NCBI RefSeq assembly: GCF_008729015.1
Contig: NZ_RKSM01000001.1
Span: 1,426,001 to 1,490,000, forward strand
DNA: 64,000 bases
DNA from: Haloarcula sp. CBA1129
GTDB lineage: Archaea; Halobacteriota; Halobacteria; Halobacteriales; Haloarculaceae
Direction of reading: 5' to 3'
Under the pieces are notes generated by a model. That model did not search any database. It saw only the letters and a program-made list of their open reading frames with translations, and was not told where the DNA came from. The translations under genes and the position numbers were made by a program. Below are positions 16,182 to 44,456 of this stretch, piece after piece. Numbering within the stretch: the first letter of the stretch is position 1; each line of letters opens with the position of its first letter.

Positions 16182-16200
16182 AGCTATGATAGGTATGAAT

Positions 16201-16322
16201 GGTGGCGGCGAACCGCGTTTCCCAGAGGCTCGCGCACTCCAGTACTCCCCGGAACGCTGGTGGGCTTATCTTCCGTGTTCGGGATGGGTACGGGAGGCAA
16301 CCCCACCGCTGTGGCCGCCTAA
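16201..16322 (-). rRNA. rrf: 5S ribosomal RNA
   Basis: The minus-strand sequence begins ttaggcggccac and contains the archaeal 5S core cccgtacccatcccgaac, closing with the complementary gttcgccgccac. The ends pair to form helix I. The length of 122 nt fits haloarchaeal 5S. It is the last gene of the rRNA operon. Confidence 0.95.
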
Positions 16323-16384
16323 CGTCGAGTCGCGGAGTCGAACCGCGAAAGTACCAGTCTCGATCAACTCTCCACCGTGTGATT

Positions 16385-16450
16385 ACGTGCGATCCAGTTT
16401 GCGCCTGGACTCGTTCAGCGACGAGTTAAATCGTCGGTGAATGAGTCACA
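16385..16450 (-). repeat. 3' arm of the 23S processing stem
   Basis: This stretch between 23S and 5S is complementary in blocks to 19389-19436 ahead of 23S. The pairings are gtgcgatccag, cctggactcgttcag-type and gagtcaca blocks, broken by short bulges. In archaea such stems carry the bulge-helix-bulge site cut by the splicing endonuclease to release pre-23S. Confidence 0.75.
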
Positions 16451-16460
16451 GTGCGTATGA

Positions 16461-19382
<2,922 letters not shown>

Positions 19383-19388
19383 CGTCGT

Positions 19389-19436
19389 TGTGACTCGTTC
19401 AACTGAACGAGTCCAGTGGACGCCTGGATCGCACGT
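19389..19436 (-). repeat. 5' arm of the 23S processing stem
   Basis: Pairs with 16385-16450. The 14-nt core ctggactcgttcag is perfectly complementary to ctgaacgagtccag in the partner arm. A second perfect block (gtgcgatccag/ctggatcgcac) lies on the outer side. The arm starts a few bases before the 23S 5' end. Confidence 0.75.
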
Positions 19437-19650
19437 ACACACGGTTTCATTCTCGCCCCCAAGGTGGAGATGGTGGGCGAATCGACCCTTCCCAAGCGCG
19501 GTTTCACCCGGCTTGGTGCATCTGTCGTCGTACCACACTCGAACGCCGTCCCACACTTAAGGGGACGGATTCGGAGGCGGTACGAAGTACGGACCCGTCG
19601 GGAGTTGCACCCGACATCCCCGTGAAGGGATATCCGCCTCGGATAGGTCG

Positions 19651-19679
19651 TGTGAGCCCAGCGGGCCCATGCAGTAGTC
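19651..19679 (-). repeat. 3' arm of the 16S processing stem
   Basis: On the minus strand this reads gactactgcatggg then cccgctgggctcaca. It is complementary to 21304-21332 ahead of 16S: the first 14 nt pair perfectly, and about a dozen more pair after a small bulge. It loops out the whole 16S gene for endonuclease processing. Confidence 0.8.
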
Positions 19680-19757
19680 GGCGCTTGCCGACTCGCGGTG
19701 ACTTGTGGTCACCAGTCAATGTAGGTGGGTCAGGGCAAAGCCCTGATCCCGGTCAGT

Positions 19758-21229
<1,472 letters not shown>

Positions 21230-40378: not shown

Positions 40379-41560
40379 ATGAGTACACAAACCATGATAA
40401 TTCCTATGGATCTGCTATCCGAGAAACTCGTTCCAGAACACGCACACGAGGTCAAGGAAGAGGCTCGGGAGTTCGCCGCGGAGCATATCGAACCAGTCGC
40501 GGGTGACTACTATGCGTCCGGGGAGTACCCCTGGGAAGTGCTCGAAGCGGCCACGGAGGCCGGACTCGTCGCACAGGATATCGGTGAGGAGTGGGGCGGG
40601 AGCGGTTACGACCTCCAGCAGATGCTCGCGATGGCGGAAGAGCTGTACAAAGCCGACGCAGGAATCGCGCTGACGATCCAACTCGCCAGCTTCGGCGCTG
40701 AGATCGTCGAGGACCACGGCGCAGACTGGCAGAAGGAAGAGTTCCTTGAGCCCGTCGCCGCCGGCGACCAGCTTACCGGTCTCGCCGTCTCAGAGCCGGA
40801 AACAGGGAGCGACCTCGCCGGGATGACGACGGCCGCCGAGAAGGACGGCGACGAGTGGGTGCTCAACGGCGAGAAGTACTGGATCGGAAACGGTGTCGAG
40901 GCCGACTGGGTAACGCTGTACGCCAAGACCGGTGACGACCCGAACGACCGCTACGGGAACTACTCGATGTTTATCGTCCCGACGGACGCCGACGGCTACC
41001 ACGCCGAGCACATCCCCGAGAAGATGGGCTTCCGGGCGTCCAAGCAGGCCCACATCGTACTCGACGACTGCCGCATTCCGGAGGAGAACCTCATCGGCGT
41101 CGAAGGGGCCGGCTTCTACATGCTCGCCGAGTTCTTCAACCACGGGCGCGTCGTCGTCGGCGGCCACGGCATCGGCCTCGCCGCCGCGGCCATCGAGGAA
41201 GCCTGGGAGTTCGTCCACGACCGCGAGGCCTTCGGCAAGACCGTCGATGAGTTCCAAGCGGTCCAGCACAAACTGGCCGATATGCAACTTGGCCTCCAGT
41301 CCGCCCGAGCGCTCACCTGGCACGCGGCCGAGCGCGTCGCGAATCAGGAGAACGCCGGCTACTGGGCCGCACTGGCAAAAACCCAAGCGACTGAAGCCGC
41401 GATGGACTGTGCGGAGAAGGGGATGCAACTCCACGGGGGCCGGTCCGTCCTGACCGAGAACCGTATTTCCCGCGTGTACCGAGACGTGCGAATTCCAGTC
41501 ATCTACGAGGGAGCCAACGACATTCAGCGGAATCTCATCTACAATCAGGCCCCGCTGTAA
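40379..41560 (+). CDS. Acyl-CoA dehydrogenase
   Basis: 393 residues from the ATG at 40379 (a second ATG at 40406 gives MDLLSEKLVP, a more usual N-terminus). FAD-binding/catalytic landmarks are LAVSEPETGSDLAGM, WIGNGVEADW, FGKTVDEFQAVQHKLADM and the C-terminal VIYEGANDIQRNLI, which contains the family's catalytic-base glutamate (YEG). It oxidises acyl-CoA to enoyl-CoA, passing electrons to ETF. It lies directly before the replication-origin repeats. Confidence 0.93.
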   Translation: MSTQTMIIPMDLLSEKLVPEHAHEVKEEAREFAAEHIEPVAGDYYASGEYPWEVLEAATEAGLVAQDIGEEWGGSGYDLQQMLAMAEELYKADAGIALTIQLASFGAEIVEDHGADWQKEEFLEPVAAGDQLTGLAVSEPETGSDLAGMTTAAEKDGDEWVLNGEKYWIGNGVEADWVTLYAKTGDDPNDRYGNYSMFIVPTDADGYHAEHIPEKMGFRASKQAHIVLDDCRIPEENLIGVEGAGFYMLAEFFNHGRVVVGGHGIGLAAAAIEEAWEFVHDREAFGKTVDEFQAVQHKLADMQLGLQSARALTWHAAERVANQENAGYWAALAKTQATEAAMDCAEKGMQLHGGRSVLTENRISRVYRDVRIPVIYEGANDIQRNLIYNQAPL

Positions 41561-41625
41561 CGGATAGAGGTCAGTCGAGCAGTCTCGATTGCTCGATTGC
41601 GTCGAAACGGCGTATTTTCGCAGGC

Positions 41626-42308
41626 ACACCACCCTTCGAGTGTTCTTCGGCGAAGTCTGGTTCCCCTGTACGGCAGTTCGTTATTGGGCGGTCCGAACCG
41701 CCCAGTACACCAAGCGGGTCAGTCACTGTACAAAGGGTCCAAGACCGCTCATATTGGGTCAGTACACCACCCTACAAGTGTTCTTTCACTGCCTTCAGGT
41801 GTTCCCAAATCGGCTACAACTGCCCGCGGACAGTGTACACCTGTTCACACACCACCCTGCAAGTGTTCATACAAGATTGTTCGATCAAACGAAGTTCCCC
41901 TGAGACACCACGCTTCAAGTGTTTTGCGCTGTGGCTCGACGTTCCGATACGCCCTGTCACACCACCCTGCAAGTGTTTCACGCACTGAGTGAGAGACGAG
42001 AGTCCACGGGGACACCACCCTGCAAGTGTTCCGAAAAGCCCGTTTTGGACGGTTTTCTCGTCGAATCGGAGTTCACACCACCCTGCAAGTGTTTTCGAAA
42101 CGGAATACTGTACCGCTGTTGCGAAAGTCAACAGACACACCGGTCTGCAAGTGTTCTACACACTGTCCGGGGAGCAAATAGCACATGATGGCCCTGTTGG
42201 CACTTCGATTTCACGATCTATTGTGGGCACACACACCACCCTGCAACTGTTCTGGACTGCACAGTAGAGAGACTACTGCTGAACACACACACCACCGTGC
42301 AAGTGTTC
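41626..42308 (+). repeat. Array of ten 20-bp origin-recognition-box-like repeats
   Basis: The consensus acaccaccctgcaagtgttc occurs ten times in the same direction, starting at 41626, 41764, 41849, 41905, 41959, 42012, 42075, 42137, 42233 and 42289. Most copies differ by 0-3 bases. Spacing is about 53-63 bp through the centre and up to 138 bp at the left. It lies on the 3' side of the orc1/cdc6 gene. No gene with credible codon use occupies 41561-42344. I recall that a repeat-rich region after one cdc6 gene in Haloarcula hispanica acts as a negative control element for its origin; this may be its counterpart. Confidence 0.9.
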
Positions 42309-42344
42309 TGCCGTGTGAGCGGGTGGGGTGTGTAAGTACGCTGG

Positions 42345-43673
42345 CTACGTGAACTGCCAGAGGTTCTGTTGCTCGTCGTCGGTTGTGTCCGGTGCCTCGA
42401 ACTCGGTGGCCTCGTCTTCCAAGTAATGTTCGAGAATTCCGTTGACGTTACTCGGCACGGCGTCACTGTAGGATGACTGGAGCGCAGCGTTGATAATGTC
42501 GGTCGGGTCGTCGGTGACCTCGTAGATGTACTTACGTCCGCCCTTCCGGCCGAGGTTGCGTTCCGCAGAGCGGACCAGCCCCTGCATCGAGAGCTGGTCG
42601 AGAAACTCGTAAATCTTGCGCTCGGATTTCACGCGGCGACCGCTCGACTCCGCAATCGAGGAGTAGAGGTTATAGATTCGCTTCGTCGACGCCTCGTGTT
42701 TCGGTTCGATGAGTGCAAGCGTCGTCGCAAGGTACGTCAGCGCCTGCTGTGAACTCAGGTCATGTTCGAAGTAATCGAGGAGTTCGTCGGTCTCGATAGT
42801 GTCCGTCGCCCGGCGGGTGTGTGCTTCCGTCACGCCATCTGCACCCTCCATTCGTGCGTACTCCCCGGCCTTTTCGAGGATGCGGAGCCCCTGCCGAACG
42901 TCACCGCGCTCTTGTGCCGAGAAGGCCGCCGCCAGTGGGACGACATCTTCGCCGAGCACGTCCTCCCGGAACGCGATGTCGGCGTAGTAGCCCAGAATAT
43001 CCCGAAGTTCAGTTGCGTCGTACGGGCCGAACTTGATTTCTCGCTCTCCTAACGTCGATTTCACCTTGGGTTCCAGCACGTCAACGAACTTGAGGTCGTT
43101 TGAGATTCCAATGAGCCCGACCTTCGCATCGGTGATCGGCGTGTTCTCGTTCGCTTCAGCTCGGGGCAGTTCATAGAGGAAGTCGTTCCGTGCGTCCGCG
43201 GGAATGTTGTCGATCTCGTCCAGAATAATAAGAACGTTCCCACCGACAGCCTCGATCTCTTCGTAGAGGAACTCAAAGACGCTATCAGTGCTGTAGCCGC
43301 TTTCAGGAAGCTGGTTTTCGGGCTCTCGGAACTCGTTGACAAGGGTGTTGACCAACGCATACGCCGACCGGTAGTTCCGACAGTTTATCGGGCCGACAAC
43401 GGTGAGCGGGATATCCTCGGCCTCGGCTTTCTCTTCGAGTTTATCGCGAACCCACTTCGTGACAGCAGTCTTGCCGACGCCCGTGGGACCGTAGACGAAG
43501 ACGTTGTTGGGGTCGTGACCGACGATAACATCCTGAAGCGCGTTGATGTAGAACTCGATCTCCTCGTCACGGTGAAAGATCGTATCCGGCGTGAACGTGT
43601 CTTTTTTTAGCGGTTGCTTTCGTTCGAAAATCGCGTCAGTCCCATCGAACGGGTTCTCGTTCACGTCGACCAT
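42345..43673 (-). CDS. cdc6: Orc1/Cdc6 replication initiator
   Basis: 442 residues. AAA+ features: the N-terminal PLKKDTFTPDTIFHRDEE, Walker A VYGPTGVGKTAVTKWV, Walker B VLIILDEIDNIPADARN and sensor regions through LKFVDVLEPKVKSTLGE, which contains the initiator-specific helix region. The C-terminal winged helix (about 330-430) contacts origin DNA. It binds origin recognition boxes and loads MCM. Repeat copies lie on both sides of the gene, and half-copies abut its TATA box, so this Orc1 is the natural candidate to bind these repeats and regulate itself. Confidence 0.96.
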   Translation of the reverse strand: MVDVNENPFDGTDAIFERKQPLKKDTFTPDTIFHRDEEIEFYINALQDVIVGHDPNNVFVYGPTGVGKTAVTKWVRDKLEEKAEAEDIPLTVVGPINCRNYRSAYALVNTLVNEFREPENQLPESGYSTDSVFEFLYEEIEAVGGNVLIILDEIDNIPADARNDFLYELPRAEANENTPITDAKVGLIGISNDLKFVDVLEPKVKSTLGEREIKFGPYDATELRDILGYYADIAFREDVLGEDVVPLAAAFSAQERGDVRQGLRILEKAGEYARMEGADGVTEAHTRRATDTIETDELLDYFEHDLSSQQALTYLATTLALIEPKHEASTKRIYNLYSSIAESSGRRVKSERKIYEFLDQLSMQGLVRSAERNLGRKGGRKYIYEVTDDPTDIINAALQSSYSDAVPSNVNGILEHYLEDEATEFEAPDTTDDEQQNLWQFT

Positions 43674-43697
43674 CGTAACCCACTTTTTGAGTGACTA

Positions 43698-43705
43698 TAT
43701 ATAAA
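43698..43705 (-). promoter_or_regulatory. cdc6 promoter with origin half-repeats
   Basis: The minus-strand TATA element ttatatat is centred about 29 nt before the ATG at 43673, giving a leaderless message. Directly upstream of it (43720-43740) two tandem copies of tcaagtgttt, the inner half of the origin repeat, are positioned where bound initiator could block the promoter. Confidence 0.6.
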
Positions 43706-43756
43706 ACCAGTGACCATCGTTCAAGTGTTTCAAGTGTTTCTACGTCGAGTAGTCAC

Positions 43757-43776
43757 ACACCACCCTGCAAGTGTTT
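43757..43776 (+). repeat. Origin recognition box, left of the unwinding zone
   Basis: acaccaccctgcaagtgttt, 19 of 20 bases identical to the consensus of the downstream array and in the same direction. With the inverted copy at 44109 it brackets the AT-rich zone. Confidence 0.85.
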
Positions 43777-44108
43777 CTTCGGCCACCCTCGAAAACAGTG
43801 ACAAGCAGTATGCTCTGTCGACTCTTGATCTAACACACTTGAGTCCTGCGATTCTATATCCTCTGCGTTCTAGACTAGAACTAGGTCTAGTACTATTTTT
43901 TATATCTTATGGTTTAGGAAATAATATCTGGTTAGCTAAAAATAGCCCTGATGACTTTATTGATGCTATAACACCCCTAAAGCCAATTCTATACGCTTCT
44001 GAGAACCGGCCCGAACACAGAACTCCGATACAACTAACCGACTCTTCACTCGTTTAAATACGTATGAGGGGACCCACCCCTCCCCACCCCCACTCCTACC
44101 AACACCGA
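43777..44108. other. Putative replication origin: AT-rich unwinding zone
   Basis: The interval between two opposed origin boxes is AT-rich, most strongly about 43890-43950 (for example tactattttttatatctta). This is unlike anything else in the window apart from promoters. It contains four CTAG tetramers within 43870-43890 and a C-rich tract at 44070-44095 next to the inverted box. No coding frame is convincing. The layout initiator gene, opposed boxes, AT-rich core is the standard archaeal oriC design. Confidence 0.82.
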
Positions 44109-44128
44109 GAACACTTGCAGGGTGGTGT
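44109..44128 (-). repeat. Origin recognition box, inverted, right of the unwinding zone
   Basis: gaacacttgcagggtggtgt is the exact reverse complement of the 20-bp array consensus, so it faces the copy at 43757. It is the only inverted full copy found. Confidence 0.88.
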
Positions 44129-44153
44129 GTGTGGGTCCGCTCATACCGAGCGC

Positions 44154-44456
44154 GATTTAATATAAAAAGAAGTGGCATCACCGGGCAGACGAAGCCAACT
44201 GCACGCTTGCGAGCGGGTGTTGCAGCGAGCAAGGCCAGCCACAGTGCCGACCGGGGCCGCGTACAGGTGGCCGAAACTTCGTCGTCGACGGCCACAGGGT
44301 CGCGACGGCCGCGAACCGCGGAACAACGGCGCGTGGAAAGAGAAACGATGCCGCGAACGGCAACGAGCCGCTGGGGCCGAGGCACTGCTCAGCCATGACC
44401 TCTCGGTATTCGAGGGGGTGTCCGGGACAGGGGACTGAGACGCAGTCCATGACAGA
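44154..44456 (+). other. Structured GC-rich region, possible non-coding RNA
   Basis: A strong TATA-like ttaatataaaa (44154-44164) precedes about 270 nt of GC-rich sequence. It has short hairpins, such as gtggccg/cggccac (44267-44295), ccgcg-aac-cgcgg (44309-44321) and gccg-cgaa-cggc (44350-44361). The longest frames on either strand encode very basic or Cys/Pro-rich peptides without the acidic bias or GC3 of haloarchaeal genes, so I do not call a protein. It does not match what I remember of SRP RNA or RNase P RNA. Confidence 0.3.

Follow-up and report, generated by a model that had tools for sequence, protein, structure and literature searches.

The window analysed here is a stretch of 64,000 nucleotides from Haloarcula sp. 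CBA1129, and it contains the orc1/cdc6 initiator gene cdc6E, the replication origin oriC2 and the genes that surround them (Table 1). The closest solved relatives of Cdc6E are the archaeal Cdc6 homolog chains 2qby and 2v1u. Upstream of cdc6E, the ORBs at 43756 (+) and 44110 (-) are inverted relative to each other on either side of an AT-rich stretch, which is the layout of a standard archaeal origin. The oriC2-cdc6E region is syntenic in Haloarcula, with an rRNA operon about 20 kb away (PMC4441112). The window has both the inverted ORBs round the AT-rich region upstream of cdc6E and an rRNA operon at the published distance, as expected of the oriC2 locus. A further, weaker box is located at the cdc6E promoter. 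The promoter region (43710-43740) has a doubled half-site that reads GAAACACTTGAAACACTTGAACGATGGT on the cdc6 strand. In the loci checked, the promoter box sits roughly at -55 to -58, or at -70 in the most distant relatives, and in some other genera it is stronger, reaching up to 30 bits. Its presence suggests that Cdc6E controls its own promoter.

Table 1. Features of the oriC2-cdc6E locus, in window coordinates
Feature	Position	Strand	Basis or remark
rRNA operon	16200..21229	-	some 21 kb downstream of cdc6E; transcription runs away from the origin
Convergent acyl-CoA dehydrogenase gene, bounding the array	40409..41560	+	also the neighbour at almost every Haloarcula locus compared
One-way array of ten 20-bp ORB-like boxes (assigned as oriC2D ortholog)	41625..42307	+	pattern and weight-matrix scan; aligned with the 722-bp interval of H. 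hispanica and with 12 further Haloarcula relatives
Remnant of a further box, CCTTCAGGTGTT	41792..41803	+	alignment and direct sequence reading
orc1/cdc6 initiator gene cdc6E, 442 aa	42345..43673	-	TIGR02928, 365.7 bits against a cut-off of 181; 97-100% identical in Haloarcula relatives with the locus
Weaker promoter box of cdc6E, immediately upstream of a TATA-like element	43710..43729	+	about -56 from the ATG; position kept in the relatives checked
Origin-core ORB proximal to cdc6E	43756..43775	+	consensus match; oriented like the array
AT-rich unwinding region of oriC2	43830..44000	.	lowest 80-mer 26% GC, from 43891
Origin-core ORB, distal	44110..44129	-	consensus match; inverted

Downstream of cdc6E are ten copies of a box with the consensus CACACCACCCTGCAAGTGTT, all on the + strand, which start at 41625, 41763, 41848, 41904, 41958, 42011, 42074, 42136, 42232 and 42288. 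A box was called when it had no more than three mismatches to CACACCACCCTGCAAGTGTT in the 18-base core. The initial annotation had described ten one-way boxes behind cdc6 and was correct in this, as the boxes lie directly 3' of the gene, although its coordinates (41626-42308) were off by one base. It had also placed many of the boxes about 55-62 bp apart. The start-to-start spacings are 138, 85, 56, 54, 53, 63, 62, 96 and 56 bp; the description thus suits six of the nine (53-63 bp) but not the three of 85, 96 and 138 bp. A weight matrix derived from the boxes gives each of the ten 27-37 bits, and no site outside 41500-44200 reaches 12 bits (61 kb of the window, both strands, 122,562 tests). 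Beyond the array, the same scan gives strong sites only at the two origin boxes, plus the weak promoter box at 43710. Sites with no more than three mismatches number 16 in the whole genome (4.05 Mb), and 12 of these are in the oriC2 locus, while the reversed box pattern, used as a control, matches once. A lone oriC2-type box with one mismatch is present outside the locus (L054, G000:C1:1796237-1796254).

The element is already known in the sister species H. hispanica, and the array in the window adds the copy of another species. Contig C3 of genome G007 is presumably the H. hispanica chromosome, with the interval in agreement with the publication: the 722 bp between cdc6E and the acyl-CoA dehydrogenase gene contain 11 boxes, both numbers as given for oriC2D. 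Wu and coworkers (PMC3936714) described oriC2D, the intergenic region of 722 bp with 11 ORBs that follows cdc6E, as a negative element that lowers the efficiency of oriC2, and proposed titration of Cdc6E in the manner of datA. The window interval of 784 bp aligns box by box to that of G007 and of twelve other Haloarcula loci, and the Cdc6E proteins of the window and G007 are 99.5% identical. By Cdc6E identity, neighbouring genes, rRNA operon position and this alignment, the array is the oriC2D ortholog in another Haloarcula species; the comparable negative element behind a cdc6 gene of H. hispanica, to which the initial annotation had pointed, is oriC2D. The two share their place behind cdc6E, boxes, direction and neighbours as orthologous DNA. 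They differ in box number and length (ten boxes in 784 bp in the window), in the far box (41625), which is kept in the window and absent in H. hispanica, and in the boxes near 41790, which are kept in H. hispanica but lost from the window.

Box number in Haloarcula ranges from 8 to 12, with 12 (11-12) in most relatives and ten in the window, where a deletion has taken one whole box that is present in most relatives and truncated another to the remnant at 41792-41803. This cdc6 was found in 16 of the 32 genomes of the genus at the threshold used. Copy number that shifts so easily, together with a young 47-bp tandem array in Halobellus whose spacers are copies, is what would be expected if the boxes were functionless leftovers of tandem duplication. 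However, the boxes are far more conserved than the spacers. Between the window and its 13 relatives, boxes are 86-98% identical and spacers 39-73%, and in the alignment 77% of box columns are invariant versus 13% of spacer columns. The observed contrast was reached in 2 of 783 circular shifts used as a control. In H. salina, the boxes are conserved though its spacers are only 39% identical to those of the window. Furthermore, oriC2D of H. hispanica could be deleted together with oriC2 but not while oriC2 was intact (PMC3936714). A neutral relic was rejected on the conservation of boxes versus spacers, and there is next to no chance that the boxes are such leftovers. Judged by the alignment, the downstream boxes are under selection, and the comparison confirms this for the published negative element of H. 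hispanica. Some departures from the consensus are also kept across the genus, namely GCAACTGTT at 42232 (14 of 14) and CCGTGC at 42288 (13 of 14). These box-specific departures are suggestive of sites that may have graded affinities.

The array is not confined to Haloarcula. Boxes are found downstream of cdc6E in all 40 cdc6E loci compared (67-100% identical, several of them one genome from two collections; box threshold at least 11 bits). Since these include loci with other neighbours and loci on plasmids, the array is part of the cdc6E module, and the downstream cluster travels with cdc6E across several genera. Outside Haloarcula, the arrays vary in box number (1-10), spacing and spacer sequence. 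An involvement of the neighbour gene is disfavoured, as boxes are kept at cdc6E loci outside Haloarcula that are without the acyl-CoA dehydrogenase gene. Direction does not vary: all 322 downstream boxes in the 40 loci (redundancy included) have the direction of the gene-proximal origin box, although these represent about a dozen array types that are unlike by eye and are not 322 independent cases, since direction may be inherited via tandem duplication, as the 47-bp repeat of Halobellus suggests. No inverted box was found in the downstream array of any relative among these loci. In Haloparvum sedimenti (L038, 5001-6417), the match of the cdc6E relative is split in two and runs over a length that is not a multiple of three. 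Either the gene may be disrupted or the assembly may be in error, yet it is still followed by ten one-way boxes. In Halorubrum sp. Hd13 (L035), two boxes are located between cdc6E and an ORF that starts with a ParA-like P-loop (KGGTGKTTT), which is a plasmid partition context.

The boxes of the array are the same as those in the origin core, as they would be in a second or reserve origin. The absence of inverted boxes in every relative is at odds with such a role, as is base composition, with the lowest 80-mer in the array at 46% GC versus 26% in the core. In addition, oriC2D alone gave no autonomous replication in H. hispanica (PMC3936714). A second origin was rejected because all array boxes point one way and the array has no AT-rich stretch, and this reading is extremely improbable.

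The array is very likely the oriC2D element of this species, a cluster of Cdc6E binding sites that lowers free Cdc6E at oriC2 and so damps firing. Given the identity of the boxes with the origin ORBs, the ten array boxes would bind further Cdc6E, and they would be unable to start replication because they have neither an inverted partner nor an AT-rich stretch. Cdc6E bound to the array would leave less free Cdc6E at oriC2. The array is less than 2.5 kb from the origin, so it would double right after firing and would damp re-initiation. In H. hispanica, a chromosomal copy of oriC2D lowers an oriC2 plasmid in trans, and two oriC2D boxes have an intermediate effect (PMC3936714). Titration of Cdc6E, the mode of action favoured by Wu and coworkers, is the best reading here as well and is probably how the element works.

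There is some tension with a purely passive sponge, as the origin boxes are closer to the consensus than most array boxes and direction is strictly kept although titration does not need polarity. Both origin boxes match the consensus exactly, against three of the ten in the array, so that a passive sponge would depend on how many sites it has and not on their affinity. Direction may conceivably be part of the mechanism, making the array a polar structure and not a passive sponge, though the balance is against this. If it is, the polar array could pair with the origin, could seat Cdc6E in a non-firing order, or could be one-way so that no inverted pair fires. The conserved single direction thus offers a handle to tell titration from pairing or active inactivation.

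Pairing would restrain oriC2 if Cdc6E on the array and on the origin boxes held both, by iteron-type handcuffing or in a local loop. Arrays of directly repeated initiator sites next to the gene for the initiator are reminiscent of plasmid iterons, and the direction shared with the gene-proximal origin box in 40 loci is something that a sponge would not need. However, this polarity could follow simply from tandem duplication, given the copied spacers of Halobellus, and no helical phase is kept between boxes. In the window, the best R of the Rayleigh statistic is 0.70 (p 0.095, jittered controls), and the statistic gave no signal in H. hispanica, H. salina or other genera. Box spacings range from 22 to 150 bp and drift by single bases between species, and across eight relatives with 12 boxes a given inter-box distance varies by as much as 13 bp. 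The proposal of the initial annotation that near-regular spacing sets initiator filaments or loops is not supported, given such drift and the lack of a kept phase, and a requirement for fixed spacing or helical phasing was rejected on the same results. Pairing is an unlikely way for the array to act.

Another alternative is that the array actively inactivates the initiator, for instance if Cdc6E bound there is stimulated to hydrolyse ATP. In recent work, E. coli datA is said to provoke ATP hydrolysis by its bound initiator. With sites ordered in a single direction, Cdc6E molecules could all be seated in the same way, and the box-specific consensus departures kept across species suggest graded sites and not a bulk sponge. 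However, spacings of 22-150 bp would make for uneven contact between neighbouring monomers. Active inactivation appears less likely again than pairing, and titration of Cdc6E remains the preferred reading.

Other cdc6 genes of the same genome have boxes of their own. Downstream of the cdc6 gene at G000:C1:1017392-1018507 (L012) are boxes of that gene's own type, six in one direction and one reversed, and the cluster lies partly in a 100-bp duplication. The cdc6 gene at G000:C1:1747153-1748325 (L015) has four one-way boxes directly downstream, about 27-31 bp apart, and the one at C3:378736 has two downstream boxes that are opposite in direction to its gene-proximal origin boxes. Wu and coworkers likewise found downstream boxes to be common at cdc6 genes (PMC3936714). 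Downstream boxes are common at the cdc6 genes of this genome too, with strict polarity clearest for cdc6E. Beside a further cdc6 gene is a CRISPR-like array (L013:32-910, near G000:C1:868000) with the repeat GTTTCAGACGAACCCTCGTGGGGTTGAAGC, a 66-bp period and at least 13 copies. The cdc6 on the 12-kb contig C2 (G000:C2:9716) has the same score and identity as the main-contig cdc6 at G000:C1:805186, and the two may be the free and integrated copies of one small element.

Several known systems resemble the array to different degrees. Contig C8 of genome G014, which we take to be chromosome I of H. marismortui, has 12 one-way downstream boxes. ORBs are found on both sides of the cdc6h locus of H. 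marismortui and of other haloarchaeal cdc6 genes (PMC3528665). The cdc6h locus is like that of cdc6E in having ORBs in both flanking intervals but differs in box number and spacing. The datA locus of E. coli is comparable only in how it works: its clustered initiator boxes reduce initiation at the origin. Unlike the array, it is far from oriC, has fewer boxes and does not accompany the initiator gene. It binds DnaA with IHF. Plasmid iterons, like the boxes of the array, are initiator sites repeated in one direction next to the gene for the initiator, and incompatibility is a further parallel. Iterons are usually located within or at the origin, with a spacing of about 20-22 bp that keeps helical phase. 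By the Rayleigh statistic, a regular helical phase between repeats was not found in the arrays of the window, H. hispanica, H. salina or other genera. The array thus differs from iterons in that its spacings drift and it is separate from the origin.
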